IMG/VR virus record: IMGVR_UViG_3300039106_000697
Span: 2,403 to 28,779 of that record
Origin: a virus
Length of the DNA stretch: 26,377 nucleotides
Reading direction: 5' to 3' (one strand)
The translations under genes were made by a program, and so were the position numbers. Positions 5,426 through 22,433 of the stretch are shown here, in pieces. Below the pieces are notes generated by a model. That model was given only the letters and a program-made list of their open reading frames with translations. It did not search any database and was not told the DNA's origin. Each line of letters begins with the position of its first letter. The first letter of the stretch is position 1.

Positions 5426-6901
5426 ATGGCGATTCAACAAATTTCAACCAGTAATACTTTTCAACAATGGTTAACTTCGACACAATTGTTGATTGAACAC
5501 GCTAATTACTTTCAAAATACATCAAATTTAGTATTTGAAACTGCGAATAATGTTTCAAATACTTATACTGATATTTTAAATTTCGTTAGCACAGCGTCAA
5601 ATACAGCGAATGATGCAAATATAACTGCAACTAATGCAAATAATATTGCGACTGTAGCAAACGCAACTGCTTATAATGCAAATAGTATTGCTAATATAGC
5701 GAATGCAACTGCTTACGCAGCAAATACACTTGCAACTCAAATAATTGGTGAATTGACAAGTGGTAATGTTACTATTGAGATTATCAATAACACCACAGTA
5801 GATTCAAATCACTTTATTGGATTTTTTGAAGTTTCCTCTGGATTGACTTCTAACATTTATGCATCTTCATCAAAACTAAGTTTTAATCCAAATTCTGGCG
5901 CTCTTAATACCATAGAATATAAAGTTAATGGTGTTACCGTTATTGATAGTGCGAGAACGATAACGAATCTTGGTTCACCACTTGCAATTTCACAGGGTGG
6001 TACTGGACAGTCAACTGCTGCAAACGCAAGAGCAAATCTTGGTTTAGCGATTGGTACTGATGTTCAAGCATATAATGCAACACTAGCAACAGTTGCAGGT
6101 GGAACATACATAGGTGCAACTTCAATAACCACATTAGGTACTATTGCAACTGGAACTTGGAGTGCAACAGCGATTGCAGCAAATAGAGGTGGTACTGGAC
6201 AAACATCGTATGCTATTGGTGATATATTATATGCAAGTTCATCATCAGCTTTAACAAAACTTGCTGGCGTTGCAACTGGTAATACTTTAATTTCTGGTGG
6301 CGTTGCAACTGCACCATCTTGGGGTAAAGTTGGTCTGACGACACATATTACTGGTACTTTAGCAATAGCAAATGGTGGAACTGGAGCAACTGATGCTGCA
6401 ACTGCAAGAAGTAACCTTGGTCTAGCAATCGGAACAAATGTTCAAGCATATAACGCAAATCTTGCTACATGGGCAACAAAAACTGCTCCTTCTGGTGTTA
6501 TTGTAGGTACAACAGATACTCAAACATTAACCAACAAAACACTCAATTCTGCAAATCTTGCTTCAGCGAATATTAGTGGTGGATTATTAAATGATGGTTA
6601 TACGGAAGAAGTATATGCGATCAGTGGTACTACGCCAGCATTATCACCAAACAACGGTTCGATTCAAACTTGGACTCTTTCTGGCACTTCAACACCTACT
6701 GCTGGTACTTGGGCATCTGGACAATCAATAACTTTAATGGTTGACGATGGAAGTGCTCGTACTATAGTTTGGACAAGTGTCCCCGTGACTTGGAAAACAA
6801 ATGGTGGATCAGCGCCGGCTCTTAATACAACTGGTAACACAGCAATAGTATTATGGAAAGTTGGTACCACAATTTATGGAGCCCGTGTCGGAGATTATTA
6901 A
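5426..6901 (+). CDS. Tail fibre protein with coiled-coil N terminus and GGTGQ repeats (cassette A)
   Basis: A 491-residue fibre with three parts. Residues 1-107 begin with an attachment-like segment (MAIQQISTSNTFQQWL) and continue as Ala/Asn-rich repeats such as NATAYNANSIANIANATAY, expected to form a trimeric coiled coil. The middle carries repeats typical of phage fibres: QGGTGQSTAANARANLGL near residue 190, RGGTGQTSYAIGDILYASSS, and a second NGGTGATDAATARSNLGL near 315. Residues from about 355 start with VGTTDTQTLTNKTL and end in a domain with TLMVDDG, LNTTG, LWKVGT and YGARVG. That domain recurs at the end of the 1916-residue fibre at 12527-18277. A weak AAGG lies eight bases before the ATG. 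The stop overlaps the next start (TAATG). The likely role is a distal fibre carrying the glycine-rich product of the next gene. Confidence 0.85.
   Translation: MAIQQISTSNTFQQWLTSTQLLIEHANYFQNTSNLVFETANNVSNTYTDILNFVSTASNTANDANITATNANNIATVANATAYNANSIANIANATAYAANTLATQIIGELTSGNVTIEIINNTTVDSNHFIGFFEVSSGLTSNIYASSSKLSFNPNSGALNTIEYKVNGVTVIDSARTITNLGSPLAISQGGTGQSTAANARANLGLAIGTDVQAYNATLATVAGGTYIGATSITTLGTIATGTWSATAIAANRGGTGQTSYAIGDILYASSSSALTKLAGVATGNTLISGGVATAPSWGKVGLTTHITGTLAIANGGTGATDAATARSNLGLAIGTNVQAYNANLATWATKTAPSGVIVGTTDTQTLTNKTLNSANLASANISGGLLNDGYTEEVYAISGTTPALSPNNGSIQTWTLSGTSTPTAGTWASGQSITLMVDDGSARTIVWTSVPVTWKTNGGSAPALNTTGNTAIVLWKVGTTIYGARVGDY
6890..6893 (+). promoter_or_regulatory. Ribosome binding site for the glycine-rich tip gene
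   Basis: GGAG lies seven bases before the ATG at 6901. It supports that ATG, which overlaps the fibre stop as TAATG, over the in-frame ATG at 6853. The earlier ATG is inside the fibre's conserved LWKVGT coding region and has no such site. Confidence 0.6.
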
Positions 6902-7770
6902 TGTTAGCAACTAAAGCATTGAGTGCAACTGCCGCAATACCACCTGGGCAAGCTGAATACACAAGTGGTGGAACATACACTTGGGTTTGCCCAAATGGTG
7001 TTTCAACAGTATGTGTAGTTTGTGTTGGTGCCGGTGGGCCGGGAACTAACATTTTAGATGTTGCATATACCGCCGCAGGCGGCGGAGCTTTAGCTTATAA
7101 AAATAATATCCCAGTCGTACCTGGGGAGTCTTATACTGTAGTGGTTGCACCACTAGGTTCATCACCAACAATAGATGGTCAATCTTCTTCTTTTTCTTAT
7201 GGTGCAACAACTTATGTAAGCGCAGCTGGCGGAAATAGAGGTAATAGAGCAAGTTTACCTGGTCGAGGTGGGCAAGCTTCATCCTGTATAGGTGATGTTG
7301 CATATAGTGGTGGAAATGGAGGCGCACATACAGGTAATGGTTCTCCTGGTGGTGGCGGCGCCGCAGGTTATTCAGGTAACGGTGGTAATGGTGGTTCTGA
7401 TGCGGTAGCAGGAAATAGTGGATCTGCTGGAAATGGTGGTGGCGGTGGTGGTGGATCTGCATCGTACGGTGCATACTCTACAGAAGCTGGTAGTGGCGGC
7501 GGCGGTGTCGGAATTTATGGTGAAGGAAGTTCTGGATTGGGAGGGACTATTTCTCCTTCAACATTAGATGGTGGTGGCAAAGGTGGATCTGGTGGTGAAG
7601 ATGGTAATTATGCAATATCGAATCGATATGGTGTTGGTGGATCTTATGGTGGTGGAGGTGGTGCTGGTGACATAAATGGTCAGTACATTGGTATTGGCGG
7701 TGGTGGTGCTGTAAGAATTATATGGGGTGCTAACAGAGCATTTCCATCAACAAATACAGGAGACGTTTAA
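6901..7770 (+). CDS. Glycine-rich tail-tip/adhesin protein (cassette A)
   Basis: From the ATG at 6901 the product is 289 residues. The 48 bases of open frame before it belong to the fibre gene. The N-terminal part (YTSGGTYTWVCPNGVSTVCV) is a beta strand pattern common at the start of phage glycine-rich domains, followed by GGGALAYKNNIPVVPGESYTVVV. From about residue 100 the chain is dominated by Gly runs with Asn, Ser and Ala (GGNGGNGGS, GNGGGGGGGS, GGGGVGIYGEG), and it ends GGGAVRIIWG...FPSTNTGDV. Gly-rich tips of this sort resemble the polyglycine-sandwich adhesins (gp38-type) of T2- and S16-like phages, which bind the host receptor. That parallel is inference from composition and gene order, not from homology I can test. 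Its position directly after a fibre and before an assembly-type gene mirrors cassette B. Confidence 0.8.
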   Translation: MLATKALSATAAIPPGQAEYTSGGTYTWVCPNGVSTVCVVCVGAGGPGTNILDVAYTAAGGGALAYKNNIPVVPGESYTVVVAPLGSSPTIDGQSSSFSYGATTYVSAAGGNRGNRASLPGRGGQASSCIGDVAYSGGNGGAHTGNGSPGGGGAAGYSGNGGNGGSDAVAGNSGSAGNGGGGGGGSASYGAYSTEAGSGGGGVGIYGEGSSGLGGTISPSTLDGGGKGGSGGEDGNYAISNRYGVGGSYGGGGGAGDINGQYIGIGGGGAVRIIWGANRAFPSTNTGDV

Positions 7771-8306
7771 TGTGGATTTATGAAGCAGATTTAAAAGTTT
7801 TTAAAACTCATTCTGATATCAGATCGTATTTTAAAGACGTATCAATGCCAACTACAATATCGGAAAGTAATATTTCTTCACTCGGAGTAAAACCTGTTAC
7901 GAAAGTTAGCCCACCAAGTTATGACTATGTTACTCAAATTCTTGAAGAAGATTTACCAGTTCAAATAAATGGTATTTGGACTCAAAGTTGGAAAATTCGT
8001 TCAGCAACACAAGAAGAATCAAATCAACGAAAGATAGAAGTTAAAGAAAAAATTATTAAATCTGTTCAAAATAGATTAGATGTATTTGCACAGAGCAAAG
8101 GATATGACAGCATTCTTGCTGCAACTACATATGCCACATCAATTGTTGCAGAATTCAAAGCAGAAGGTCAGTATGCTGTAGAAGCAAGAGATATAACTTG
8201 GAAAAAACTTTTTGAAATATTTGCAGATGTAGATTCGGGAAAAAGAGCAATGCCAAATAATTACTCAGAGATAGAATCAGAATTACCAGTATTAAATTGG
8301 AAATAA
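7770..8306 (+). CDS. Putative tail-fibre assembly protein (cassette A copy)
   Basis: This 178-residue protein is clearly paralogous to the 185-residue product at 19543-20100. Both share, in order, an aromatic N-terminal segment, SPxYD, VQINGIWTQ/TQINGIWTQ, a central charged helix, RLDVFAQS, GYD, YATS, EGQY/EGRY, VEAR, TW and an ESELPVL/ETELPIL ending followed by W. This is a widespread phage family with no firm function that I know. Its place after fibre and tip genes suggests a fibre assembly chaperone. AGGAG at 7758-7762, seven bases upstream, supports the ATG at 7770, and the start overlaps the previous stop (TAATG), so translation is probably coupled. The stop is followed by a 27-base gap holding a possible late promoter. 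Confidence 0.75.
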   Translation: MWIYEADLKVFKTHSDIRSYFKDVSMPTTISESNISSLGVKPVTKVSPPSYDYVTQILEEDLPVQINGIWTQSWKIRSATQEESNQRKIEVKEKIIKSVQNRLDVFAQSKGYDSILAATTYATSIVAEFKAEGQYAVEARDITWKKLFEIFADVDSGKRAMPNNYSEIESELPVLNWK

Positions 8307-8309
8307 ATA
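8302..8309 (+). promoter_or_regulatory. Possible T4-type late promoter
   Basis: AATAAATA matches the T4 late motif TATAAATA at 7 of 8 bases and is followed by C. It overlaps the stop of the 178-residue gene. A transcript starting a few bases downstream would include the strong AGGAG before 8334. In AT-rich DNA a 7/8 match is weak evidence alone; position in one of the few intergenic gaps raises it. Confidence 0.3.
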
Positions 8310-8322
8310 CTAAAATTAAAAC

Positions 8323-8327
8323 AGGAG
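8323..8327 (+). promoter_or_regulatory. Ribosome binding site deciding a GTG start
   Basis: AGGAG followed by a run of six T and then GTG at 8334. This spacing of six bases is what supports the non-ATG start of the next gene. Confidence 0.65.
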
Positions 8328-8333
8328 TTTTTT

Positions 8334-8666
8334 GTGGCAGCATATTCAGAAATCGTCATCGAACAGTATGCAGATTTTTCCACTACGGTTACAATCAATG
8401 ATCTTCAAGGTGATTATTTAAATTTAGCAACATATTCAGCATCATCTCAAATTAGAAAGTCATACTATTCTACTACAGCAACCAGTCTTACTGTTCAAGT
8501 TACTGATTCTGCTAATGGTTTATTGACAGTTTCTTTAGATGCGGCAAATACATCAAACTTATCTGCGGGAAGATATGTATACGATTTAGTTATACAATCT
8601 AACGACAATAAAAAAACAAGAGTTGTTGAGGGTATAGCAACAGTCATTCCAGGCGTAACTCGATAA
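8334..8666 (+). CDS. Small Ig-like virion/tail protein
   Basis: The 110-residue product starts at a GTG behind a strong AGGAG. It reads as a single beta-sandwich domain: EIVIEQYADFSTTVTI, SSQIRKSYYSTTATSLTVQV, then LTVSLDAANTSNL, AGRYVYDLVIQS and VVEGIATVIPGVT. The pattern of a short beta protein with QIRKSYYS and GRYVYD...RVVEGI...PGVT is one I recognise from structural gene clusters of T4-like aquatic phages, where it is annotated only as a virion or hypothetical protein. The stop overlaps the ATG of the collagen-like fibre (TAATG), which suggests a fixed stoichiometric or assembly link between the two. The Ig-like fold is inferred from strand pattern. Confidence 0.75.
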   Translation: MAAYSEIVIEQYADFSTTVTINDLQGDYLNLATYSASSQIRKSYYSTTATSLTVQVTDSANGLLTVSLDAANTSNLSAGRYVYDLVIQSNDNKKTRVVEGIATVIPGVTR

Positions 8667-10828
8667 TGTCAAATATCGGTAAAGTAACAGTTGGTGCGAC
8701 TGGTGCACAAACAACTGTTAAAGTAGGTCACTCATCACAAACAACAATCGCAAGCCCCTTATACCAGCAACAAGAAATAATTAGTATTTCTGGTTATTCT
8801 GGTGTTTCTGGCTATTCAGGTTCTGGTATATCTGGTTATTCTGGAACTTCTGGTTATTCTGGTATCTCAGGTTACTCAGGAATTTCTGGCTATAGCGGAA
8901 GAAGTGGTTATTCAGGCATTTCTGGATATTCCGGATATTCAGGACATACTGGTTTGTCTGGTTATTCAGGACAAGATGGTACTTCTGGATTTTCTGGACA
9001 AAATGGTTTATCTGGTTATTCTGGACAAATTGGAACTTCTGGCTATAGCGGTATCTCGGGTTATTCTGGCATCTCTGGTTATTCAGGATATTCTGGAGAG
9101 TCTGGATATTCTGGATCTGGTGTAAGTGGTTATTCAGGATATTCTGGAGAGTCTGGATATTCTGGTATATCAGGTTACTCAGGCATAAGTGGTTATTCTG
9201 GTACATCAGGTTACTCAGGAATATCGGGATATAGTGGTTATTCAGGTATCTCAGGTTACAGCGGTTATTCTGGTGAATCAGGTTATTCTGGATATTCAGG
9301 AATCTCTGGTTATTCAGGTATCTCAGGTTACAGCGGTTATTCTGGTATAAGCGGATACTCAGGTTATTCAGGCATTTCTGGTTATTCGGGTATCTCGGGT
9401 TATTCGGGTTCAGGTATATCTGGTTATAGCGGCTATTCTGGTTATTCTGGAAAAGATGGTCAATTTGGTGGCGCATCTTTCTACTACATTTTCGACACTA
9501 AAACAGATACACTTGATCCAGGTCAAGGCAAATTAAATGTTAATACTGGATCATTCTCAACAGCAACGACATTAACAATACATGATAGCGATAGGTTCTC
9601 TTCTAATATATCATCATTTCTACAAACAATAGACGATTCTACAAGTGATATTAAAGGTTATGCTAAGATCACAGAAGAAGCTAATTTATCGAATTTCGTA
9701 ATATTTGCGATTACTGGTATTCATACAGAAGCAAGTCAACATTTTGATGTTCCAATTTCTTACATTTCCGGTGGTACTACAGTATTCAATAATGACGCAA
9801 ACGTCATCATTTCATTTACAGTAACTGGTGATAGAGGCGATTCTGGTATATCAGGTTATTCAGGTATCTCAGGATATAGTGGCTACTCTGGTATATCAGG
9901 ATATTCTGGTATCTCGGGTTACAGCGGTTATTCTGGCGAATCAGGATATAGTGGCTACTCTGGAATTTCAGGATATTCAGGTATCTCAGGATATAGTGGC
10001 TACTCTGGTATATCAGGATATTCAGGTATCTCAGGATATAGTGGCTACTCTGGTATATCAGGATATTCTGGTTACTCTGGTGAATCAGGTTATTCAGGTA
10101 TCTCAGGTTATAGTGGTTACTCTGGTATCTCAGGTTACAGCGGCTATTCTGGCGAATCAGGCTATTCTGGTTACTCTGGAATCTCTGGTTATTCAGGTAT
10201 ATCAGGATATTCAGGAATCTCTGGTTATAGTGGTATCTCAGGTTATAGCGGCTACTCTGGCGAATCAGGCTATTCTGGTTACTCTGGAATCTCAGGTTAT
10301 AGTGGTGAATCAGGAACATCTGGATATAGCGGACAAGATGGAACTTCTGGTTTCTCTGGGCAAAACGGACTATCAGGATATTCTGGTGATTCAGGCATTT
10401 CAGGTCACTCTGGTATCTCTGGTTACAGCGGTGATTCTGGAATTTCAGGATATTCAGGATATTCGGGTTATTCAGGATCTGGTGTAAGTGGTTATTCTGG
10501 ATATTCGGGTTACTCAGGATTAACTGGCGATCCTGGCATATACATAGGGTCATCACCACCTGTAGATACTTCGATATTGTGGTTAGATGAGAGTGATCCT
10601 AACGGTGCTGGTGTTATAGGAATTCCACCTAGTGGTAATACATCACAAGTTCTAACGAAAACGTCGAATACTAGTTATGACGTACAGTGGTCAACACCAT
10701 CGATAGTATCAAATCCAACTGGAATTACTGGTGCAACAGCAATAACAAATATAGTACAATTAAGTCAGGCGTCATACGATGCTATCGGTTCACCTGATGC
10801 AAATACTCTTTATATAATTGTAGGTTAA
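8666..10828 (+). CDS. Collagen-like Gly-X-Ser tail fibre with inserted globular domain
   Basis: A 720-residue protein. After a 42-residue head it has a first stalk (residues 43-265) of strict Gly-X-Ser triplets, X being mostly Tyr or Ile with Glu, Asp, Gln, Thr, Phe. A non-repetitive domain (about 266-387) begins GQFGGASFYYIFD and contains SSFLQTIDDSTSDIKG. A second stalk (388-623) follows. The C-terminal part (about 624-720) has IYIGSSPP, a SGNTSQVLTKTSNT motif and NIVQLSQASYDAIGSPDANTLYIIVG-like residues typical of phage fibre ends. Canonical collagen-like triplets (GKD, GDR, GDP) appear at stalk borders. Expected to be a trimeric side or tail fibre. The inserted domain has a clear paralogue in the 1916-residue fibre. 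The many ORFs in other frames across the stalks are shadows of the repeats. Confidence 0.88.
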   Translation: MSNIGKVTVGATGAQTTVKVGHSSQTTIASPLYQQQEIISISGYSGVSGYSGSGISGYSGTSGYSGISGYSGISGYSGRSGYSGISGYSGYSGHTGLSGYSGQDGTSGFSGQNGLSGYSGQIGTSGYSGISGYSGISGYSGYSGESGYSGSGVSGYSGYSGESGYSGISGYSGISGYSGTSGYSGISGYSGYSGISGYSGYSGESGYSGYSGISGYSGISGYSGYSGISGYSGYSGISGYSGISGYSGSGISGYSGYSGYSGKDGQFGGASFYYIFDTKTDTLDPGQGKLNVNTGSFSTATTLTIHDSDRFSSNISSFLQTIDDSTSDIKGYAKITEEANLSNFVIFAITGIHTEASQHFDVPISYISGGTTVFNNDANVIISFTVTGDRGDSGISGYSGISGYSGYSGISGYSGISGYSGYSGESGYSGYSGISGYSGISGYSGYSGISGYSGISGYSGYSGISGYSGYSGESGYSGISGYSGYSGISGYSGYSGESGYSGYSGISGYSGISGYSGISGYSGISGYSGYSGESGYSGYSGISGYSGESGTSGYSGQDGTSGFSGQNGLSGYSGDSGISGHSGISGYSGDSGISGYSGYSGYSGSGVSGYSGYSGYSGLTGDPGIYIGSSPPVDTSILWLDESDPNGAGVIGIPPSGNTSQVLTKTSNTSYDVQWSTPSIVSNPTGITGATAITNIVQLSQASYDAIGSPDANTLYIIVG
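8792..9460 (+). repeat. Collagen-like stalk 1 of the 720-residue fibre
   Basis: About 220 residues of Gly-X-Ser triplets with X mainly Tyr and Ile. Single-residue-gap interruptions of the form Gly-Ser-Gly occur three times (in GYSGSGIS or GYSGSGVS). The codons vary synonymously from unit to unit. The stalk ends in GKDG before the globular domain. Confidence 0.85.
9827..10534 (+). repeat. Collagen-like stalk 2 of the 720-residue fibre
   Basis: Starts with GDRGDS and continues as Gly-X-Ser triplets rich in Tyr, Ile and Glu at X, ending GLTGDPG. It contains a perfect 45-base tandem duplication at 9978-10067. Confidence 0.85.
9978..10067 (+). repeat. Perfect 45-bp tandem duplication inside stalk 2
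   Basis: Two adjacent identical 45-base units, 9978-10022 and 10023-10067, each coding five Gly-X-Ser triplets' worth of sequence. Identity at every synonymous site, unlike the surrounding scrambled codons, points to a recent duplication. Confidence 0.8.
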
Positions 10829-10830
10829 CG

Positions 10831-12321
10831 ATGCCAACAAGTACAGGTAAAATATACTTAGGTTCAACACTCTTGACTGGCGGTGAAAGTGCAGTATCAT
10901 GGAAGCGAAATCCTGCATGGTTGACTATACCAACTGTTGGAAACACAGAACAAAAATTTGTTGGTCTTATTGCTGTATCACCAAATGGTACATTTACGGC
11001 ATTAAGGGCACAGGGAAATTATACTGTTGATTGGGGTGATGGAACAACTGAAAATATTTCCAGTGGAGTTCAAGCAAATCATTTTTTTGATTATACAGAT
11101 TCTGATCTTAACAACACAAATGCTCCAGTCACTTTAACAGGTAGTACCGATCTAGTTACAAGAAATAATCATGGTTATAGCAATGGTGATGTAATCACTC
11201 TTTGGAATATTAGCGGTACAACAGGTATATCGAATGGTCAACAATATTATGTAATCAATTCTACAACAAACACATTTCAAATATCAGAAACGTCTGGTGG
11301 TTCAGCGGTAGCATTAACAGGTGATGGAACTGCAACTCTTCTTAATTACAAACAAGCAATAGTTGTAGTAACTCCACAAGCAGGGCAAAATTTAACTCTT
11401 CTGAATATTAACTTAAGAAACTCTACTAGCGGTTTAAATCAATATGAAGCTAACTGGTTAGATATTGAACTTGGAAGTCCTAATCTTACTTCTTTACAAA
11501 TATCCAACAGTAGCACTATGAATATCTATATGAAAATGTTAGAGAGAGTGGATATTAAAAGCCTTGGCTTAATTACAGATTTATCATCTATGTTTTATAG
11601 TTGCACTTCTCTGCGATCAGTATCTTTACTTGATACCTCTGCTATAACGAATATGTATGGTTTGTTTATTGGTTGCTATTCATTAGAAAGTGTCCCTCTA
11701 TTTGATACATCTTCTGTTACAGCCATGTATAATATGTTCTCCGATTGTTATTCATTAAAATCTGTACCTCTATTTAATACATCTTCTGTTACAGATATGA
11801 ATAATATGTTTGCTTATTGTTATACGTTACGAGAAGTGCCATTGTTTGATACATCTTCTGTTACAGATATGAGCAGTATGTTTAATAATTGTTATACCTT
11901 AAAATCTGTACCATTGTTTGATACATCTTCTGTTACAAATATGGATTATATGTTTAGTCAATGTTCTTCTCTTCATTCCATACCCACATTTAATACATCT
12001 TCGGTGACAACTATGGTGGGTATGTTTCAGTATAGTCAAGCATTAAATGCAATTCCAGCACTTAATGTATCGTCAGTAAATTCGTCTGATTATTTTTCGG
12101 GCATATTTGATGGTTGTAAGTCTATTTCAAGAATAGAAGCGCAAGATTTTAATTACTCCTTTAGTGTTGAAAATTGCAGATTATCAGCGACTGCTCTTAA
12201 TGAAATCTATACGAATCTACCTACCGTATCGGGTCAGTCTATCACAGTAACTGGAAATTATGGAACATCATCAGACACACCATCCATTGCTACAGGTAAA
12301 GGTTGGACAGTTGTAGGATAA
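10831..12321 (+). CDS. BspA-like (DUF285) leucine-rich-repeat adhesin with PKD-like N terminus
   Basis: A 496-residue protein. The N-terminal part (WLTIPTV, EQKFVGLIAV, then YTVDWGDG at about 64-71) is a PKD-like domain, with its later strand (YKQAIVVVTPQAGQNLTLLNI, about 173-193) separated by a roughly 75-residue insert holding NHGYSNGDVITLWN and YYVINSTTNTFQIS, itself a common small phage beta domain. Residues about 248-430 are tandem 23-residue repeats of the BspA/DUF285 type: a SMF or NMF segment, a Cys-x-SL step, then PLFDTSSVTDM. The ending SITVTGNYG...IATGKGWTVVG is a usual cap of such proteins. Repeats of this kind mediate binding to proteins or surfaces in bacteria and occur in phage fibres, so a host-contact role is likely. 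The ATG follows the previous stop by two bases; a weak TAGG lies six bases upstream. Confidence 0.85.
   Translation: MPTSTGKIYLGSTLLTGGESAVSWKRNPAWLTIPTVGNTEQKFVGLIAVSPNGTFTALRAQGNYTVDWGDGTTENISSGVQANHFFDYTDSDLNNTNAPVTLTGSTDLVTRNNHGYSNGDVITLWNISGTTGISNGQQYYVINSTTNTFQISETSGGSAVALTGDGTATLLNYKQAIVVVTPQAGQNLTLLNINLRNSTSGLNQYEANWLDIELGSPNLTSLQISNSSTMNIYMKMLERVDIKSLGLITDLSSMFYSCTSLRSVSLLDTSAITNMYGLFIGCYSLESVPLFDTSSVTAMYNMFSDCYSLKSVPLFNTSSVTDMNNMFAYCYTLREVPLFDTSSVTDMSSMFNNCYTLKSVPLFDTSSVTNMDYMFSQCSSLHSIPTFNTSSVTTMVGMFQYSQALNAIPALNVSSVNSSDYFSGIFDGCKSISRIEAQDFNYSFSVENCRLSATALNEIYTNLPTVSGQSITVTGNYGTSSDTPSIATGKGWTVVG
11571..12130 (+). repeat. DUF285 leucine-rich-repeat array
   Basis: Seven to eight repeats of about 69 bases (23 residues) with a core close to SVPLFDTSSVTDMxxMFxxC. 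The middle copies are near identical in protein and in DNA (repeated tttgatacatcttctgttaca); the outer ones are diverged. Confidence 0.8.
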
Positions 12322-12324
12322 ATA
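12317..12324 (+). promoter_or_regulatory. Weak late-promoter-like motif
   Basis: GATAAATA, 7 of 8 bases of TATAAATA, overlapping the LRR gene's stop. It sits only seven bases before the ATG at 12332, so it would leave almost no leader for that gene and could serve mainly the fibre at 12527. Weak. Confidence 0.18.
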
Positions 12325-12331
12325 AAACATT

Positions 12332-12523
12332 ATGAATAATAAACCAGGTTTTTATAAATTAGAAAATGATCAATTATTATATGGTCCAAATTTTGTTCTC
12401 AATTCAAATTACGAACTGAGAAAAGAAACATATCAAGATCATGATTATCCAATAGATGGTTGGTATTGGTTTAATAGTGAGCAAGATGCCAGAACTTTTT
12501 TTAACTTACCAGAAGCAAAATAA
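12332..12523 (+). CDS. Small phage protein of unknown function
   Basis: A 63-residue acidic, aromatic-rich protein between two adhesin genes. Visible features are PGFYKLE, LLYGPNFVLNSNYEL and a C-terminal YPIDGWYWFNSEQDARTFF, a pattern I have seen in small proteins beside tail fibres of T4-like aquatic phages, without a known role. No signal peptide or membrane segment is seen. No convincing ribosome binding site precedes the ATG, but the protein fills the gap between genes exactly, ending three bases before the next start. Possible roles are a small fibre partner or chaperone; this is only context. Confidence 0.65.
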   Translation: MNNKPGFYKLENDQLLYGPNFVLNSNYELRKETYQDHDYPIDGWYWFNSEQDARTFFNLPEAK

Positions 12524-12526
12524 TAG

Positions 12527-15500
12527 ATGACTATTCAAAACACTATACTAAAACAATATATTGGGGGCCAATGGGTTCCTGTTGTCGTTGGAGCTTCAGG
12601 CGTATCTGGTTATAGTGGAATAGGAACTTCCGGTTATAGTGGTATCTCAGGTTACTCAGGTATTTCTGGATATAGTGGATATTCGGGTATATCAGGCTAT
12701 AGTGGCTATTCAGGTGAATCGGGTTACTCAGGTATAAGCGGATACTCGGGAGATTCTGGTATCTCAGGATACAGCGGATATTCTGGTATCTCAGGATATT
12801 CTGGTTATTCTGGTCAGTCTGGATTTAGTGGTGAATTTGGTATCTCTGGTTATTCAGGTCAGTCTGGTTTTAGCGGATGGTCTGGAATATCTGGATATTC
12901 AGGAATTTCAGGTTACTCTGGTGCTAGTGGTTTATCAGGTTATTCTGGCGATTCAGGATTAAGTGGATATTCAGGTGAAGTTGGAACTTCAGGATATTCC
13001 GGACAATCTGGATATTCAGGATATAGTGGATTTTCTGGATATTCAGGTGAATCAGGCATTTCGGGTTATTCGGGCGATTCTGGTATATCAGGATATAGTG
13101 GTATTTCTGGTTACTCAGGAATCTCAGGTTATTCAGGTATAAGTGGATATTCTGGTTATTCAGGCGAATCAGGTTATTCAGGTGAATCAGGACAGTCTGG
13201 CTATTCGGGAATAAGTGGCTATAGCGGTATATCAGGATATAGTGGATTTTCGGGTTATTCTGGATATTCAGGTGAATCAGGTTATTCTGGTTATTCAGGT
13301 GAATCAGGTTATTCTGGTTATTCAGGTGAATCAGGTTACTCAGGCGATTCAGGCATTTCGGGTTATTCTGGTTATTCTGGTGAATCAGGCATTTCAGGTT
13401 ATAGTGGTTATTCAGGCGAATCAGGTTATAGTGGTTATTCTGGCGATTCAGGAATTTCAGGATACTCCGGTTATAGTGGTGAATCAGGTTACTCAGGCAT
13501 AAGTGGTTATTCTGGTTATTCAGGCATCTCTGGATATTCAGGTTATTCAGGTATCTCCGGTTATAGCGGTTATTCAGGCGAATCAGGATACTCAGGAGTT
13601 TCTGGTTACTCCGGTTATTCTGGCGAATCAGGATACTCAGGCATATCAGGATACAGCGGTTATTCTGGTGAATCAGGTTATTCTGGATATTCAGGAATTT
13701 CAGGGTACTCCGGTTATTCAGGCGAATCAGGATACTCGGGTATTAGTGGATATTCAGGATATAGTGGATTATCAGGCTACTCAGGCTACTCAGGCTACTC
13801 AGGTTATTCTGGTGAATCAGGATATTCAGGTTATTCTGGCGAATCAGGTTATAGTGGTTATTCTGGTTATTCTGGCGAATCAGGTTATAGTGGTTATTCT
13901 GGTGAGTCAGGATATTCAGGCTATTCTGGAATATCAGGCTATAGTGGTATATCTGGATACAGTGGTTATTCTGGTTATTCTGGCGAATCAGGTTATAGTG
14001 GTTATTCTGGATATTCTGGATCTGGAATATCTGGTTATTCTGGCTACTCTGGAAATTCTGGCTACAGTGGTGTAGCACCAGAATCTGTTTACTACTCAGC
14101 GAATTCAATTATATTAAACGCTGGAACATACGTTTCAGGTAATGTAGCAAGCATTCAAACATATGGCGATGGTAACTATTATGTTTATAATGAAGTTAAT
14201 GGATCACCAGGTTGGGATGTTGAAATTGATTATATTAATGTTGTTAACTTCAATCGTGTTGAAGTCGCATTAAAATATGAGCATACTACTCATGTTATTC
14301 AATATCAAATTTATAATAATAATACATCTTCTTGGGATATAATAGGTACTTTTAATGGTACATCATTAGTTTTTGCATCACATATATTTGATGTTATTGA
14401 TGATGCTGCATATATTTCTAGTGGACTAGTAAAAACAAAACTATATCATGTAACAGCAGGTGTTGCAAACATTGCAGCATATATCGATTATGCGACAATC
14501 GTATTAACAACTCAAGGTCCTGCGGGCACTTCTGGTTATTCCGGAATATCTGGTTATTCTGGCGATTCAACTTCTGGATATTCTGGTTACTCAGGTATTA
14601 GTGGCTATTCTGGTTACAGCGGCATAAGTGGTTATAGTGGGATCTCTGGTTATAGTGGTATATCAGGATATTCAGGTTACAGTGGAATATCAGGTTATAG
14701 TGGATACTCTGGAATATCAGGTTATAGTGGTATATCAGGATATTCAGGTTATAGTGGTATAAGTGGCTATAGCGGGATATCAGGTTATAGTGGATACTCT
14801 GGAATATCAGGTTATAGTGGATACTCTGGAATATCAGGTTATAGTGGATATTCTGGAAGATCAGGATATTCTGGAATATCAGGATATTCTGGTTATAGTG
14901 GAATCTCAGGTTATTCTGGAATTTCTGGTTATTCAGGAATTTCTGGTTATTCAGGATACTCTGGTATATCAGGTTATTCTGGAATTTCTGGTTATTCAGG
15001 AATTTCTGGTTATTCAGGATATTCTGGAATCTCAGGTTATTCTGGATATTCTGGCGTATCGGGTTATAGCGGTTATTCAGGATACTCTGGTATATCAGGT
15101 TACTCAGGAATTTCTGGATATAGCGGAATAAGCGGATATTCTGGAAGATCAGGATACTCAGGTATCTCCGGTTATAGCGGGTATTCAGGTATTTCAGGTT
15201 ACTCTGGTATCTCTGGCTATTCAGGCATATCAGGATACTCTGGGCAAGACGGTGGTATGCTTACACCAGGAAATTATGTTGTAAGAGCCACTAAACAAGG
15301 TGGTACTCAAACAATAGCAAATAATTCAGATACTATTGTCACATTCGGAGATGACTTTGATCCACAAGGTTGGTTTGCGTCCAATAAGTTTCAACCAACT
15401 ATTGCGGGATACTATGCAATTAGTGTTGCAGTTTGGTGGAATGCCGCTGCTGTCTCAAATAATCAAACTAACATTCAGCTTAGAAAAAACGGAACGACGC

Positions 15501-18277
15501 AACTCGCAATCGATCAGACTCAAACTCTAACTGGTTCTGGTTACGGTCAAAACATATCTACATTAGTTTATTTTAATGGTACAACAGATTATGTAGAAGT
15601 TACAGCGTATACTGGTAATACAACATCTCAAGATATCAATAGTTCAGGTAGTGGAACTTATTTTAATGCTTCATTGTATGCGTATGGTCAATCTGGAACT
15701 TCTGGATATTCTGGTATAAGTGGTTATTCAGGTATTTCTGGTTATAGTGGTAGATCAGGTTATTCAGGCATTTCTGGATATTCAGGTTATAGCGGTATAT
15801 CTGGTTATTCAGGTATAAGCGGTTACAGCGGATCTGGAGTTTCTGGTTACAGCGGATCTGGTATTAGTGGTTATTCTGGTTATTCTGGAACTTCAGGTTA
15901 CTCAGGCTTATCGGGTTACAGCGGATCTGGTGTCAGCGGATATTCTGGTTACAGCGGACAATCAGGATATTCAGGTCATTCAGGTATCAGTGGTTATTCG
16001 GGACAATCTGGATATTCTGGTTTCTCAGGCATATCAGGATATAGTGGAATAAGTGGATATTCAGGTGCTTCTGGTATATCAGGTTATTCTGGATATAGTG
16101 GCACAAGCGGATATTCTGGATATTCGGGCATCTCAGGTTATTCAGGTATATCTGGATATTCTGGAATCTCTGGTTATTCAGGTATATCTGGATATTCTGG
16201 AATCTCTGGTTATTCTGGTAGATCAGGCTATAGTGGTATAAGTGGTTATTCTGGCATTTCCGGTTACTCAGGATATTCTGGAATTTCTGGTTATAGTGGT
16301 TATTCTGGAATAAGTGGCTATTCTGGACAATCTGGTTTTAGCGGATGGTCAGGAATATCAGGCTACTCGGGCATAAGTGGATACTCGGGCTTCTCCGGAA
16401 TTTCTGGTTACTCTGGATCTTCTGGTTATTCTGGGATCTCTGGATATTCTGGCATCTCAGGTTACTCGGGTTACTCAGGTCAAAGTGGATATAGTGGTAA
16501 AGATGGTAATTTTGGCGGTGCTTCTTTTGACTATACGTTTGACACTACAACCACAGCATCAGATCCGGGAACTGGTAAGTTAAGATTTAATAATACAGAT
16601 TTGTCTTTAGCGACTTCGTTGTATATTGATGATGTTGATGATGCTTCTAAAGATATTTCGAGTTTTCTTGCTACAATTGATGATAGTGCAAGTAGCATCA
16701 AAGGACACATTAAAATATCGCTAAAAACCGATAATAATGTGTTCACATTCTTTGCGATAACAAATGCCAGCACCGACAACGGAACATGGTATACAGTACC
16801 CGTTTCATATCTCTCTGGAAATACATCGTTCACGAATTCTAGTGACATTTTAATAACTTTCGCCAGAACTGGTGATAAGGGAGACCAAGGTCTGTCTGGT
16901 TATAGTGGCTATTCTGGTTATAGTGGATTCTCAGGTCAATCTGGTTATAGTGGTTTCTCAGGTAATTCTGGTTATAGTGGTTTCTCAGGTCAATCTGGTT
17001 ATAGTGGATTCTCAGGCATTTCAGGTTATTCTGGAATTTCGGGTTATAGTGGTATCTCTGGATATTCTGGAATTTCAGGTTATTCTGGTAGATCAGGATA
17101 CAGCGGTTATTCTGGTATTTCGGGTTATAGTGGTTACTCGGGCATCTCAGGATATTCTGGAATTTCAGGCTATAGTGGTATCTCTGGCTACTCAGGCATC
17201 TCAGGTTACTCTGGTATTTCTGGCTATAGTGGAATAAGTGGTTATTCTGGTAGATCAGGATATTCTGGTTACTCAGGTATTTCTGGATATTCTGGTTATT
17301 CTGGATTCTCAGGATATTCTGGTATTTCTGGTTATTCTGGACAATCCGGTTTCTCAGGAGCTTCGGGTATCTCAGGATATTCTGGTATTTCGGGTTATTC
17401 GGGTGCTTCTGGTATCTCAGGATACTCAGGTTACTCAGGCATTTCAGGTTACTCTGGCATTTCTGGATATTCTGGAAGATCGGGTTACTCGGGTTATGGT
17501 TTGGTATTTACAAGAAAAACCACAACATATACTGCTGTTAGTGGCGACAATATTATCGCAGACACATCTGGTGGCGCATTCACAATAAACTTACCAGCAA
17601 CACCGTCTATTGGCGATAGAGTTTCGTTCTACGATGGTGCGCTCTGGTCTACTAATAATTTAACAGTTGGTCGTAATGGAAGCACGATTGAAGGTCTTTC
17701 TGAAGATTTACTTCTAGACATACCACAAGTAACAGTAACATTTGTATATGATGGCACTACTTGGGAAGTGTTTGCTTCAGTTGGTACTTCTGGTTATTCT
17801 GGTGTATCTGTTCCTTATCCTGGTGCAGGTATACCAGTATCTACAGGTAGTGCATGGACAACATCAAAAACATCACCCACAGGTGATATTGTAGGAACTA
17901 CTGATTCACAAGTATTAACAAATAAAACTTTGACGGATCCAGCAATTGTTGGCGCAATTCTTGAAGATGTTTACACAATTACAGATGGTGCTGCGTTTGA
18001 AATTGATCCAGGAAATGGATCAATTCAATTAATTACACTAGGAGCAAGTAGAACACCAAAAGGTACAAATTTTGCAGCAGGAGAGTCTGTAACATTAATG
18101 GTAGACGATGGTACTGCATATACATTAACTTGGACTGACGCCACTTGGGGAGGTTCTGGTGTTGTTTGGAAATCTGATTCTGGCAATGCTCCGACACTTA
18201 ACACAACAGGATATACTGCAATTATTTTATGGAAAGTGGGTACTCAAGTTTATGGTGCCCGAGTGGGAAATGCCTGA
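12527..18277 (+). CDS. Giant collagen-like tail fibre with four stalks and C1q-like domain (cassette B)
   Basis: A 1916-residue fibre. Domain order by residue: short head (1-23); Gly-X-Ser stalk 1 (24-516); beta domain 1 (about 517-664, with NYYVYNEVNGSPGWDVEIDY); stalk 2 (665-909); a C1q/TNF-like domain (910-1052, with GYYAISVAVWW, LRKNGTT, YFNGTTDYVEV, YFNASLYAYG); stalk 3 (1053-1327); a GGASFDYTFD domain (1328-1447) paralogous to the one in the 720-residue fibre; stalk 4 (1449-1657); then a domain with DTSGGAFTINLPATP and FVYDGTTWEVF common in T4-like phage structural proteins; and finally VGTTDSQVLTNKTL plus the same C-terminal domain as the fibre at 5426-6901 (TLMVDDG, LNTTG, LWKVGT, YGARVG). 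Probably a trimer. The stop overlaps the start of the propeller gene (TGATG). No clear ribosome binding site before the ATG. Confidence 0.88.
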   Translation: MTIQNTILKQYIGGQWVPVVVGASGVSGYSGIGTSGYSGISGYSGISGYSGYSGISGYSGYSGESGYSGISGYSGDSGISGYSGYSGISGYSGYSGQSGFSGEFGISGYSGQSGFSGWSGISGYSGISGYSGASGLSGYSGDSGLSGYSGEVGTSGYSGQSGYSGYSGFSGYSGESGISGYSGDSGISGYSGISGYSGISGYSGISGYSGYSGESGYSGESGQSGYSGISGYSGISGYSGFSGYSGYSGESGYSGYSGESGYSGYSGESGYSGDSGISGYSGYSGESGISGYSGYSGESGYSGYSGDSGISGYSGYSGESGYSGISGYSGYSGISGYSGYSGISGYSGYSGESGYSGVSGYSGYSGESGYSGISGYSGYSGESGYSGYSGISGYSGYSGESGYSGISGYSGYSGLSGYSGYSGYSGYSGESGYSGYSGESGYSGYSGYSGESGYSGYSGESGYSGYSGISGYSGISGYSGYSGYSGESGYSGYSGYSGSGISGYSGYSGNSGYSGVAPESVYYSANSIILNAGTYVSGNVASIQTYGDGNYYVYNEVNGSPGWDVEIDYINVVNFNRVEVALKYEHTTHVIQYQIYNNNTSSWDIIGTFNGTSLVFASHIFDVIDDAAYISSGLVKTKLYHVTAGVANIAAYIDYATIVLTTQGPAGTSGYSGISGYSGDSTSGYSGYSGISGYSGYSGISGYSGISGYSGISGYSGYSGISGYSGYSGISGYSGISGYSGYSGISGYSGISGYSGYSGISGYSGYSGISGYSGYSGRSGYSGISGYSGYSGISGYSGISGYSGISGYSGYSGISGYSGISGYSGISGYSGYSGISGYSGYSGVSGYSGYSGYSGISGYSGISGYSGISGYSGRSGYSGISGYSGYSGISGYSGISGYSGISGYSGQDGGMLTPGNYVVRATKQGGTQTIANNSDTIVTFGDDFDPQGWFASNKFQPTIAGYYAISVAVWWNAAAVSNNQTNIQLRKNGTTQLAIDQTQTLTGSGYGQNISTLVYFNGTTDYVEVTAYTGNTTSQDINSSGSGTYFNASLYAYGQSGTSGYSGISGYSGISGYSGRSGYSGISGYSGYSGISGYSGISGYSGSGVSGYSGSGISGYSGYSGTSGYSGLSGYSGSGVSGYSGYSGQSGYSGHSGISGYSGQSGYSGFSGISGYSGISGYSGASGISGYSGYSGTSGYSGYSGISGYSGISGYSGISGYSGISGYSGISGYSGRSGYSGISGYSGISGYSGYSGISGYSGYSGISGYSGQSGFSGWSGISGYSGISGYSGFSGISGYSGSSGYSGISGYSGISGYSGYSGQSGYSGKDGNFGGASFDYTFDTTTTASDPGTGKLRFNNTDLSLATSLYIDDVDDASKDISSFLATIDDSASSIKGHIKISLKTDNNVFTFFAITNASTDNGTWYTVPVSYLSGNTSFTNSSDILITFARTGDKGDQGLSGYSGYSGYSGFSGQSGYSGFSGNSGYSGFSGQSGYSGFSGISGYSGISGYSGISGYSGISGYSGRSGYSGYSGISGYSGYSGISGYSGISGYSGISGYSGISGYSGISGYSGISGYSGRSGYSGYSGISGYSGYSGFSGYSGISGYSGQSGFSGASGISGYSGISGYSGASGISGYSGYSGISGYSGISGYSGRSGYSGYGLVFTRKTTTYTAVSGDNIIADTSGGAFTINLPATPSIGDRVSFYDGALWSTNNLTVGRNGSTIEGLSEDLLLDIPQVTVTFVYDGTTWEVFASVGTSGYSGVSVPYPGAGIPVSTGSAWTTSKTSPTGDIVGTTDSQVLTNKTLTDPAIVGAILEDVYTITDGAAFEIDPGNGSIQLITLGASRTPKGTNFAAGESVTLMVDDGTAYTLTWTDATWGGSGVVWKSDSGNAPTLNTTGYTAIILWKVGTQVYGARVGNA
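12596..14073 (+). repeat. Stalk 1 of the giant fibre, acidic Gly-X-Ser array
   Basis: About 490 residues of Gly-X-Ser triplets. Glu and Asp are common at X (many GES and GDS) and no Arg is seen. It includes a 27-base tandem repeat at 13266-13338 and one Gly-Ser-Gly interruption near the end. Confidence 0.85.
13266..13338 (+). repeat. 27-bp tandem repeat, 2.7 copies
   Basis: Two perfect copies (13266-13292, 13293-13319) and the first 19 bases of a third (13320-13338). The unit length is a multiple of nine, so the triplet register is kept. Confidence 0.75.
14519..15253 (+). repeat. Stalk 2 of the giant fibre
   Basis: Begins with the collagen-like GPAGTS, runs about 245 residues as Gly-X-Ser with X mostly Tyr or Ile, and ends GQDGG. 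Arg occurs at X (GRS) and Glu does not. Contains a 27-base near-perfect triple repeat at 14774-14854. Confidence 0.85.
14774..14854 (+). repeat. 27-bp tandem repeat, three copies
   Basis: Units 14774-14800, 14801-14827 and 14828-14854; the outer copies each differ from the middle one by a single base. A further copy lies at 14684-14710. Consistent with recent slippage or unequal exchange. Confidence 0.7.
15685..16507 (+). repeat. Stalk 3 of the giant fibre
   Basis: About 275 residues of Gly-X-Ser triplets with the most varied X residues (Tyr, Ile, Gln, Phe, Trp, His, Ala, Arg) and three Gly-Ser-Gly interruptions; ends GKDG before the GGASFDY domain. Confidence 0.85.
16145..16216 (+). repeat. 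36-bp tandem duplication
   Basis: Units 16145-16180 and 16181-16216 are identical except for the last base. Four Gly-X-Ser triplets per unit, so register is kept. Confidence 0.75.
16870..17496 (+). repeat. Stalk 4 of the giant fibre
   Basis: Begins GDKGDQG, then Gly-X-Ser triplets with Phe, Gln and Asn near the start and Arg (GRS) later; no Glu. Ends at GYGLVFTRK, where the C-terminal domains begin. Confidence 0.85.
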
Positions 18278-19305
18278 TGTTGACGCGAATGTTGTCTGGT
18301 ACTTCTTCAAAGCAACTTGATATCGCTGTTGCACATGACGTTTCTCCTTACATTTCGGTATATCCATGGTTAGGCGGATTTGGACCAAAATATTCAGATC
18401 CATCTACATTGCCGACAGGGGTTGGTAGATCCGTCGATTTTTCATCAGACGGTGCTTATATCGCTATAGCACATGATGCATCGCCTTACGTTTCCGTATA
18501 TCCATGGAATAGAGGCTTTGGAACTAAATTTAGTGATCCTGGAACAGTACCAGCGGGATTTGGTCGAGGTGCTAAGTTTTCACCAAGCGGTGATGCAATC
18601 GCAGTTGTACATGACAATACTCCTTTTGTTGCGGCATACGCATGGAGTAGCAGCGGTTTTGGAACTAAATTTTCAAATCCTGGAACTATTCCAACATCTA
18701 GTGGTACCGGAAAACGAGAAGTTAGTTTTTCACCATCAGGTAATGATATTGCCTTAACCGGCGGTACACAAACCCCGAGAATTTACGCATACCCGTGGAG
18801 TAGTAGTGGATTTGGAACAAAGTACGCTAACCCAGGATCTGTTCCACCAACGAATGCACGAGGTACTGAGTTTTCTCCAGATGGTAGTTATTTGGCTGTC
18901 TCGCATAGCGATCAAGGATATATTCGTGTGTATCCTTGGTCTAGTGGTTTTGGTACTGCGATTGTTTCACCAATTACAGGTATTGCTCAAGGACTTGGTT
19001 GCACGTTTTCACCTAACAGCGATGTTGTAGTGTGGACTACAAATGATACTCCATTCGTTTATGCATATTCATGGACTGGTGCTTTCGGTACCGCATACTC
19101 CAATCCTTCTTCGGCGCCGATTGACACCGTAAGTAATGCTAGATTTTCTTCAGATGGTAAATTGATAGCTTTATCATATTCTTCAAGTCCATATGTTTTA
19201 GTGTATGATTGGACCAATGCATCAGGTTTTGGATCTAAATATGCAGACCCTGCAACTTTACCAACTGGTATCGGTCGATTTGTAACTTTTTCTCCTGAGT
19301 ATTGA
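18277..19305 (+). CDS. Seven-repeat beta-propeller protein, putative tail-tip adhesin (cassette B)
   Basis: From the ATG at 18277 the product is 342 residues; 48 bases of open frame before it lie in the conserved end of the fibre gene. After a 14-residue leader there are exactly seven repeats of 45-50 residues. Each has IAVAHD-like, PYVSVYPW, GFGTKYSDP, LPTG and VxFSPDG steps, the layout of WD40-like propellers in which SPDG closes one blade and the next IA strand starts another. The last repeat ends at VTFSPEY, so the ring could close with the first. Seven blades is the most usual propeller size. No signal peptide is seen. It takes the same place (first gene after a fibre with the shared C-terminal domain, one-base stop/start overlap) as the glycine-rich protein of cassette A, so a receptor-binding tip is inferred. 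GGGA eight bases upstream supports the start. Confidence 0.82.
   Translation: MLTRMLSGTSSKQLDIAVAHDVSPYISVYPWLGGFGPKYSDPSTLPTGVGRSVDFSSDGAYIAIAHDASPYVSVYPWNRGFGTKFSDPGTVPAGFGRGAKFSPSGDAIAVVHDNTPFVAAYAWSSSGFGTKFSNPGTIPTSSGTGKREVSFSPSGNDIALTGGTQTPRIYAYPWSSSGFGTKYANPGSVPPTNARGTEFSPDGSYLAVSHSDQGYIRVYPWSSGFGTAIVSPITGIAQGLGCTFSPNSDVVVWTTNDTPFVYAYSWTGAFGTAYSNPSSAPIDTVSNARFSSDGKLIALSYSSSPYVLVYDWTNASGFGSKYADPATLPTGIGRFVTFSPEY
18319..19302 (+). repeat. Seven propeller-type repeats
   Basis: Seven units averaging about 47 residues, recognised by repeated VYPW (or AYAW, AYPW, AYSW, VYDW), GFGTK and FSPDG-type motifs. Units 1 to 3 and 7 are most alike; unit 5 lacks the KYSDP step. Confidence 0.8.
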
Positions 19306-19309
19306 AAAT

Positions 19310-19546
19310 ATGAAAAAACAAATTCTTCTTTCCGCACTTGAACAACGTAAACATGAAGTTCTTGGTTATCAGATCAACATTGATAACTATCATCGAGCGA
19401 TTGAATATATGAGAATAAACTATGATCCGGATCTTGAATCTTTTGCAGATCAGCTAAATCAATTGTTGAAGACTGAGATTCTTGAGCAGAAAAAAGCAAA
19501 AGTTATCATGACTGTAATCGAACAACAATTAGCGGAGTTGTCATGA
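19310..19546 (+). CDS. Small helical protein in fibre cassette B
   Basis: A 78-residue, almost wholly helical, charged protein (starts MKKQILLSALEQRKHEVLGYQINIDNY-like, ends IEQQLAELS). It begins four bases after the propeller gene and overlaps the next gene by four bases (ATGA), so it is translated with the 185-residue assembly-type protein. Similar short helical proteins occur beside tail-fibre genes in phages and prophages, without a defined role. A fibre chaperone or a coiled-coil partner is possible. Cassette A has no counterpart. An overlapping minus-strand ORF is rejected because the + strand genes interlock here. Confidence 0.7.
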   Translation: MKKQILLSALEQRKHEVLGYQINIDNYHRAIEYMRINYDPDLESFADQLNQLLKTEILEQKKAKVIMTVIEQQLAELS

Positions 19547-20100
19547 GTCTATACATTCTAGCGCACGATGGGGTTGTGCAAAAATACCCATATAACGCAA
19601 TCGATTTGCGGCGAGATAATCCAAAAGTTTCTTTTCCGGCTTCTCCTACTGTGTCGCTGCTGGCAGAATGGAATGTTTTTCCAGTTACCACAACACCATC
19701 TCCAAATTATGATGTAATGACTCAAAAAATAATTGAAAGTGTACCAACTCAAATAAATGGAATTTGGACACAAGTTTGGTCTATAGTTGAGTTGACCGTA
19801 AATGAGATTGAAGATAAAAGACAACAGGTTACAAATGAGATAGTTATACAAGTTAAAGAACGTCTTGATGTGTTTGCACAATCTCGTGGATATGATAACA
19901 TAGTTAGTGCTTGTTCTTATGCGACAAGTCAACACCAAAAATATGGTCCGGAAGGTCGTTATTGTGTTGAAGCAAGAGAACAAACTTGGGATAAATTATT
20001 TCAAATACTAGATGAAGTTTTAGCAGGAACAAGATCAATGCCAACCTCATATGATGAAATCGAAACAGAATTACCAATACTACAATGGCCTGTGGGCTGA
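19543..20100 (+). CDS. Putative tail-fibre assembly protein (cassette B copy)
   Basis: A 185-residue paralogue of the protein at 7770-8306. It shares PxYD, QINGIWTQxW, ERLDVFAQSRGYD, YATS, GPEGRYCVEARE, TWDKLFQI, GTRSMP and a terminal ETELPILQW. The conserved C-terminal half is the family signature; the N-terminal half, with an initial YILAHDGVVQKYPY, is more variable, as expected if it contacts different clients. GGAG lies five bases before the ATG. It ends cassette B, as its paralogue ends cassette A, and a perfect late-promoter motif follows its stop. Fibre-assembly function is inferred from position in both cassettes, not shown by a motif. Confidence 0.75.
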   Translation: MSLYILAHDGVVQKYPYNAIDLRRDNPKVSFPASPTVSLLAEWNVFPVTTTPSPNYDVMTQKIIESVPTQINGIWTQVWSIVELTVNEIEDKRQQVTNEIVIQVKERLDVFAQSRGYDNIVSACSYATSQHQKYGPEGRYCVEAREQTWDKLFQILDEVLAGTRSMPTSYDEIETELPILQWPVG

Positions 20101-21894: not shown

Positions 21895-22433
21895 GCAAAA
21901 TTCAAGTTCCAGAAAACGTTCCATTTAAACTGGATTTGGGATGCGGTGATAGAAAAGAAGAAGGCTTCTTTGGTATCGATATTGTAAAAACAGATGTAAC
22001 AGATTTTGTATTTGATTTAACACAATTTCCATGGCCAATCGATAATGAAATTGTTGATGAAATTGTTTGTAATCATTTTTTTGAACATCTTAATGGTCCT
22101 CAAAGAATTAAATTTATGGAAGAATGTTATCGCATTCTGAAAAAGTCATCAAAATTAATTATTGTAGTTCCATATTGGTCGAGTATGAGAGCGATTCAAG
22201 ATCCCACTCATCAATGGCCACCAGTTTGTGAAGCATCATTCTTATACTTCAACAAGAAATGGATGGAAGACAACAAACTAAAGCATTACAATATCAACTG
22301 TGATTTTGATTATAGTTATGGATATGCTTTAGATAGCGATTTAACAGTACGCAACATTGAATGGCAACAATTTGCTGTTAAACATTATCTTCAATCTATT
22401 AATGATTTACAAGTGACTTTGACAAAAAGATGA
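21888..22433 (+). CDS. Class I SAM-dependent methyltransferase
   Basis: A 181-residue methyltransferase of the Methyltransf_11 type. Motif I is LDLGCGD (15-21), the acidic residue after the second strand is in FGIDIV (Asp31), and HFFEHL (63-68) and RILKKSSKLIIVVP (82-95) are the later motifs; DPTHQWPP (105-112) is common in sugar- or lipid-methylating members of this group. The start at 21888 is behind GAGGAGG. It overlaps both neighbours (7 and 4 bases; ATGA with the next), so it is co-translated with the glycosyltransferases and probably methylates a sugar or sugar precursor. The methyltransferase domain of the next gene is a more distant relative. Substrate is unknown. Confidence 0.8.
   Translation: MVSKIQVPENVPFKLDLGCGDRKEEGFFGIDIVKTDVTDFVFDLTQFPWPIDNEIVDEIVCNHFFEHLNGPQRIKFMEECYRILKKSSKLIIVVPYWSSMRAIQDPTHQWPPVCEASFLYFNKKWMEDNKLKHYNINCDFDYSYGYALDSDLTVRNIEWQQFAVKHYLQSINDLQVTLTKR

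Follow-up and report, generated by a model that had tools for sequence, protein, structure and literature searches.

How two neighbouring sets of tail fibre genes in one virus come to share the same fibre end, the same gene junction and the same downstream gene family, with different proteins in between, is the question raised by the stretch of DNA analysed here (the window), 26,377 nucleotides from the IMG/VR record IMGVR_UViG_3300039106_000697 (positions 2,403 to 28,779), which make up most of a 28.8-kb virus fragment. The answer proposed is that the window holds two three-part receptor-binding cassettes, each consisting of a fibre that ends in a socket domain, a tip protein that begins with a keyed plug (the anchor peptide) and a chaperone, and that the tips are exchanged whole; the probability of this reading is put at about 0.78. 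The parts of the two cassettes, A and B, are the following.

5426-6901, plus strand: fibre A, 491 residues, shaft repeats and a C-terminal socket domain, matching tail fibre PHROGs
6601-6901, plus strand: socket domain A, the fibre C-terminus (...YGARVGDY, then stop), hidden Markov model (HMM) score 152, homologous to socket domain B
6901-6945, plus strand: anchor peptide A, MLATKALSATAAIPP, its start overlapping the fibre stop (TAATG)
6901-7770, plus strand: tip A, glycine-rich, 289 residues, Gly_rich_2, phrog_4474 (E 7e-59)
7770-8306, plus strand: chaperone-like gene A, 178 residues, its ATG overlapping the tip stop by one base, phrog_4998
12527-18277, plus strand: fibre B, 1916 residues, collagen-like SGYSG shaft and a C-terminal socket domain
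17962-18277, plus strand: socket domain B (...YGARVGNA, then stop), HMM score 132, AlphaFold2 predicted local distance difference test (pLDDT) 84
18277-18321, plus strand: anchor peptide B, MLTRMLSGTSSKQLD, its start overlapping the fibre stop (TGATG)
18277-19305, plus strand: tip B, predicted seven-bladed beta-propeller, 342 residues
19310-19546, plus strand: propeller-specific partner gene, 78 residues, ...YQINIDNY..., from a family alignment
19543-20100, plus strand: chaperone-like gene B, 185 residues, PYNAIDLRRDNPKVSFP motif, its ATG overlapping the stop of the 78-residue gene

The shafts of the two fibres are unlike and their ends are homologous, with 50% identity over the last ~140 residues (E 3e-42) and a gapless DNA alignment of the last 116 nt (6790-6905 against 18166-18281, 71% identity). 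In both cassettes the fibre stop and the following ATG share one base (TAATG at 6899-6903 and TGATG at 18275-18279), and the two chaperone-like proteins (7770-8303 and 19543-20097) belong to one family, with 47% identity over 162 residues (E 1e-52). The tips differ: tip A matched Pfam Gly_rich_2 above the cut-off and gave no PDB match at E 0.1 in a sequence search, and tip B was modelled by AlphaFold2 as a seven-bladed propeller (predicted template modelling score 0.88), its best PDB match being a designed 7-blade propeller (E 3.7e-17). These parallels had been pointed out in a first-pass annotation of the DNA, and the common plan described there was found to hold for the fibre end, the overlap and the chaperone family, but not for the gene content, cassette B having an additional 78-residue gene. 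That the two cassettes arose recently by tandem duplication was considered and rejected, because each fibre end is closer to those of other phages than to its partner (83% to locus L012 for A and 89% to L044 for B).

The gene order was evaluated for 217 non-redundant fibre ends, obtained from fibre-end-led scans and chaperone-led loci; most loci were IMG/VR metagenomic fragments picked via the fibre end, and the scan of a genome collection contributed only 7. The stop/start overlap was found at 184 of the 217 junctions (one base in 173, four bases in 11), with spacing variants of 0, -3, +2, +10 and +61, and a chaperone-like gene was found within 1200 nt downstream in 154 of 175 loci. The 211 next genes fell into 51 single-linkage sequence clusters, which include HNH endonucleases and a few clear non-tips and therefore represent about 45 tip clusters. 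Pfam classes among the tips comprised propellers (WD40, lactonase and LVIVD) as well as Laminin_G (LamG/ConA), Gly_rich_2, DUF285, F5/8C with galactose-binding, Lcl_C, DUF7483 and sialidase-N, and thus distinct folds of the kinds that bind sugars or surfaces; in L293, L048 and L014, DUF285 repeats formed the tip on the main socket. Two outcomes that would have spoken against the tip swapping proposed in the first-pass annotation were not observed: the next gene is not always of the same kind, and the domain, widespread as it is, is yet tied to gene order by the overlaps and chaperones just counted. Similarly, the same gene order was recovered by a search led by the chaperone only, whose loci include a fibre end that has diverged (GSVAGQNYL) and comes with an anchor of its own (MFSANTTQV). 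The identical plan with different tips was also present in the named genomes S-CREM2 (gp115-117), CRP-1 (gp42-40), MW202701 and MW202710.

Exchange was evaluated by pairing loci whose fibre genes agree at 80% or more of the DNA positions in their final 300 nt, which gave 248 pairs. The next genes belonged to different clusters in 103 of these, upstream identity reached 95% between two different tips, and pairs of up to 98% differed by an HNH gene. In 86 different-tip pairs without HNH genes, profiled in 15-nt steps, identity was 0.81-0.91 in the fibre end, 0.88, 0.74 and 0.59 in the first three steps of the tip gene and, from nt 45, 0.31 and then about 0.26; 17 disjoint pairs gave the same curve with the same 5' breakpoint, and same-tip pairs held at 0.5-0.6. 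On the 3' side, identity was 0.29 before the chaperone, 0.60 at -15 and 0.88 from the chaperone ATG. Identity thus dropped to background at tip codons 10-15 and returned at the chaperone start, and 38 pairs were conserved on both flanks with different genes between them, 33 without HNH genes; of the five that involve HNH genes, L033/L060 has related tips behind the HNH gene. On the fibre-end tree, which is poorly resolved and built from few columns, three tip classes need 16 changes against a minimum of 2, and the same tip class recurs across separated clades. The tip is thus exchanged as a unit, leaving in place a short N-terminal anchor that goes with the fibre. The swapping of tips behind a conserved junction, first proposed from this window only, is thus borne out both by the pairs with differing next genes and by the sharp breakpoints on both sides; the 5' breakpoint falls 10-15 codons past the start of the tip gene, and a short anchor peptide is therefore part of the conserved junction.

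Conservation of the anchor was determined with one representative per tip cluster, and M1 was found in 48/48, L2 in 37/48, K/R5 in 30/48 and A9 in 31/48, a Gly/Ala-rich stretch coming after the anchor in the representatives. Anchor and fibre-end subtype co-vary: anchor identity climbs from 0.11 to 0.67 with fibre-end identity in different-tip pairs. Matched combinations of socket and anchor are GARVG with ML..KL..A, GALVGDGS with MLWHKV.GAGG, and GSVAGQNYL with MFSANTTQV. In the model of tip B, residues 1-10 are the only segment with pLDDT below 50, a helix is predicted at residues 2-6, and the propeller closes without residues 1-10, a picture in which the anchor could be a plug docking in the fibre end. 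The fibre end itself was modelled by AlphaFold2 as a compact beta-rich domain. Its profile gave no credible match to PDB sequences, and two structural candidates, a phage KP1 baseplate chain (E 9e-3) and the N-terminal region of CBA120 TSP4 (0.05), were too weak and were not used. The model matched hundreds of predicted phage fibre and collagen-like proteins, and the domain is therefore common; what is distinctive is its link to the junction, the anchor and the chaperone.

In the proposed mechanism, the fibre, trimeric by analogy and of a stoichiometry with the tip that we likewise infer, would end in the conserved beta-rich socket, and the first ~12-15 residues of the next protein (ML-x-x-K-L-x-x-A/G-G) would form a plug fitting the socket subtype, followed by a flexible Gly/Ala-rich stretch and then by an independent domain, of whatever fold, that binds the host. 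Through coupled translation at the stop/start overlap, fibre and tip would be produced jointly, and the chaperone encoded downstream would help the tip or the fibre end to fold and join. Recombination, upstream in the conserved fibre end and plug and downstream at the chaperone start, would replace the whole adhesin domain and leave the fibre untouched; such replacement would be possible because the plug is the one part that has to fit the socket.

Several points weigh against this reading. Conservation of the fibre end arises by construction, because the loci were selected through it; that of the anchor, the chaperone and the breakpoints does not. Single-linkage clustering inflates the count of independent folds, since some of the beta-sandwich clusters are perhaps distant kin, and it also merges different propellers. 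A tip-led search recovered the gene order in part: the socket was upstream of only 18 of the 33 propellers with an overlapping upstream open reading frame (ORF), and tips therefore use other attachments too. The AlphaFold2 model of the socket gave no confident match against PDB (best E 9e-3), and the docking of the anchor in the fibre end is itself a prediction.

Of the other explanations, the one that survives best, and that is still considered unlikely, is that these are ordinary operon neighbours, a common fibre domain being followed by the gene of another virion protein, which is placed somewhere other than on this fibre. The socket fold is indeed widespread in phage fibres, some related tip domains match PHROGs called baseplate or virion structural proteins, and the place of the tip on the fibre is a prediction. 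Neighbourhood alone, however, does not explain why the anchor co-varies with the fibre-end subtype irrespective of the tip, and in only two of the analysed matches does the domain lie elsewhere than at the C-terminus, with the gene order kept across very different phages. Divergence without exchange, in which a single ancestral tip gene changed very fast behind a conserved start, would suit the quick evolution of receptor-binding parts and the beta-sandwich look of several tip clusters; it is largely refuted, and very improbable, given that different folds (propeller, Laminin_G, DUF285, F5/8C and glycine-rich) follow upstream DNA of 80-95% identity, that the breakpoints are sharp at both sides, that one tip class is found in separated fibre-end clades and that extra genes travel with the tip, the 78-residue partner occurring only with propellers. 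A fused fibre-tip protein, made by frameshifting or readthrough at the overlap and with the conserved start as a linker, was suggested by the tip frame, which is open some way back into the fibre in both cassettes. The first-pass annotation had described this extension as the same 48 bases in each. These have no meaning of their own: the open frames measure 63 and 75 nt, and the ATG, which the common 48 bases reflect, derives from the conserved LWKV codons (ttATGGaaa). Among 171 relatives the length of the extension starts at 3 nt (median 72, no conserved length) and is 6 nt or less in at least 34, and an ATG is present in only 33. The extension was accordingly rejected as a second start or frameshift signal, and the variable junction spacing also speaks against a fusion, which is scarcely probable. 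Least credible is that the mosaics are chimeric metagenome assemblies: most loci are IMG/VR fragments, but the breakpoints fall at the same two places with the chaperone resuming downstream, complete annotated phages show the same plan with different tips, and a copy exists in a bacterial genome with tail genes (Ottowia, L328).

Exchangeable tips on a conserved fibre end are comparable to the gp37-gp38 system of T-even phages (Salmonella phage S16, PDB 6F45; T2/T6-like), in which a separate adhesin gene follows the distal fibre gene and gp38 caps the fibre, one monomer on a fibre trimer; for the window proteins, the adhesin role and the capping are putative. Work on gp38 cited in PMC6851490 and PMC12529663 describes its specificity as swapped by recombination between conserved motifs. 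gp38 keeps to one fold, made up of an attachment domain of three helices with conserved Trp, a beta-helix and a polyglycine sandwich, and it is the loops that vary (PMC6851490). No sequence relation to gp38, solved in 6F45, was found, tip A having no PDB match and tip B being a predicted propeller; in place of the three-helix Trp domain only ~12-15 residues are kept, with Trp3 in 16/48 and no Trp triad; whole folds differ here, rather than the loops of one fold; and a chaperone gene is present besides the adhesin. The arrangement thus works like a gp37-gp38 tip, but was not filed as a member of that system because the tests of adhesin sequence, three-helix Trp domain and single fold all failed. 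In the parts of PMC10579305 and PMC7289586 available, the Alteromonas phages A5 and V22 are described as sharing fibre and cognate chaperone modules with unrelated phages. The likeness lies in a host-recognition module with a downstream fibre chaperone that is transferred among phage families; in that case the chaperone is transferred along with its fibre, which bears its own tip, and those parts describe no intervening interchangeable tip gene. In pelagimyophages and cyanomyophages a host recognition cluster has been described (PMC7029224), and the window looks similar to it and to metaviromic islands (PMC3909814), with a large DUF4815 protein, collagen-like fibres, carbohydrate-binding domains and glycosyltransferases; the accessible text of these sources covers hypervariability and domain lists and describes no socket, anchor peptide or exchange breakpoints. 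A diversity-generating retroelement (Mtd type) was not indicated, no reverse transcriptase being found among the scanned window ORFs of a record that spans only 28.8 kb of the genome. Inversion of the Mu/P1 type was not indicated either: the longest pair of inverted repeats found in the window measures 34 nt (76%) and does not flank the tips, no invertase was found, and both cassettes have the same orientation. No description of the arrangement was found in the open-licence literature, of which coverage was partial. If the proposed reading is true, host range in many environmental phages is determined by a small exchangeable gene that bears a legible address tag; tip proteins now called 'hypothetical' can then be identified from their position and anchor, and combinations of fibre and tip can be followed through metagenomes. 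It would also offer a testable molecular joint, made of a short peptide and a fibre end, and would set precise limits of recombination for an old problem, the change of receptor specificity in phages by exchange of whole domains.

HNH genes were found exactly between the fibre stop and the tip ATG in four loci, as follows.

L033:5369-5989, HNH gene
L063:5417-6040, HNH gene
L072:830-1462, HNH gene
L128:1145-1774, HNH gene

The HNH ATG overlaps the fibre stop in three of the four loci and the HNH end overlaps the tip start in all four. The three genes tested matched phrog_374 (E 8e-68 to 8e-72), and no Pfam match was obtained at 1e-3. Judging by this position, the genes possibly home at the exchange joint. 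A wider proposal, that the keyed plug-and-socket is general across diverse phages and that the junction endonucleases cut tip-bearing junctions and so actively drive the exchange of adhesins of unrelated folds, is regarded as unlikely.

Both window chaperone-like proteins match phrog_4998 in their N-terminal half. PF16778 (Phage_tail_APC) was matched by 12 of 19 family members but by neither window copy, A and B carrying another C-terminal domain. The chaperone profile gave one real PDB match, the uncharacterised protein 2kz6 (E 1.5e-11). The 78-residue family was present in 37 of 59 propeller-cluster loci and in none of the 116 others (Fisher p 8e-23); this ~80-residue YQINIDNY family had no PHROG match and is perhaps a propeller-specific chaperone.

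The window is not the only case of paired cassettes: two fibre-end/tip cassettes in tandem were observed in other phages, namely in L189, L190, L202, L213, L281, L294, L018 and L183. Socket-only genes of 119 residues, with an N-terminal MTNARDLANFGR-type start and the fibre-end domain but no shaft, occur at L213:4453-4812, L202:3180-3539 and L189:4453-4812, each followed by an overlapping tip. The bacterial locus (L328, Ottowia sp. GY511 contig) is probably a prophage, because its socket and tip adjoin a tape-measure gene, and is a possible laboratory model. The cultured Pseudomonas phage POR1 (L364:2284-4508, orf75-orf76) has a collagen-like fibre with a diverged end (GAFAGTYAS, then stop) and a propeller gene overlapped by ATGA.

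The window starts with a 1700-residue protein with a DUF4815 domain that matches phrog_358, followed by a number of fibre genes whose products have collagen-like SGYSG repeats; glycosyltransferases and methyltransferases come last. One further element was listed between the two cassettes.

8666-12321, plus strand: possible third cassette with another socket type, a lead only

Its collagen-like fibre (8666-10828) ends in DANTLYIIVG and is followed by a DUF285 tip (10831-12321) with the anchor KIYLGSTLL; fibre ends of the DANTLYIIVG type recur in relatives among L333-L363, followed by varied proteins that start with YLG-type motifs. Directly before this fibre, a 110-residue protein (8334-8666) matches phrog_1084 and phrog_3304 (L-shaped tail fibre assembly). 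The glycosyltransferase/methyltransferase gene cluster occupies 21175-26377, within which 22430-24346 encodes a glycosyltransferase-methyltransferase fusion.

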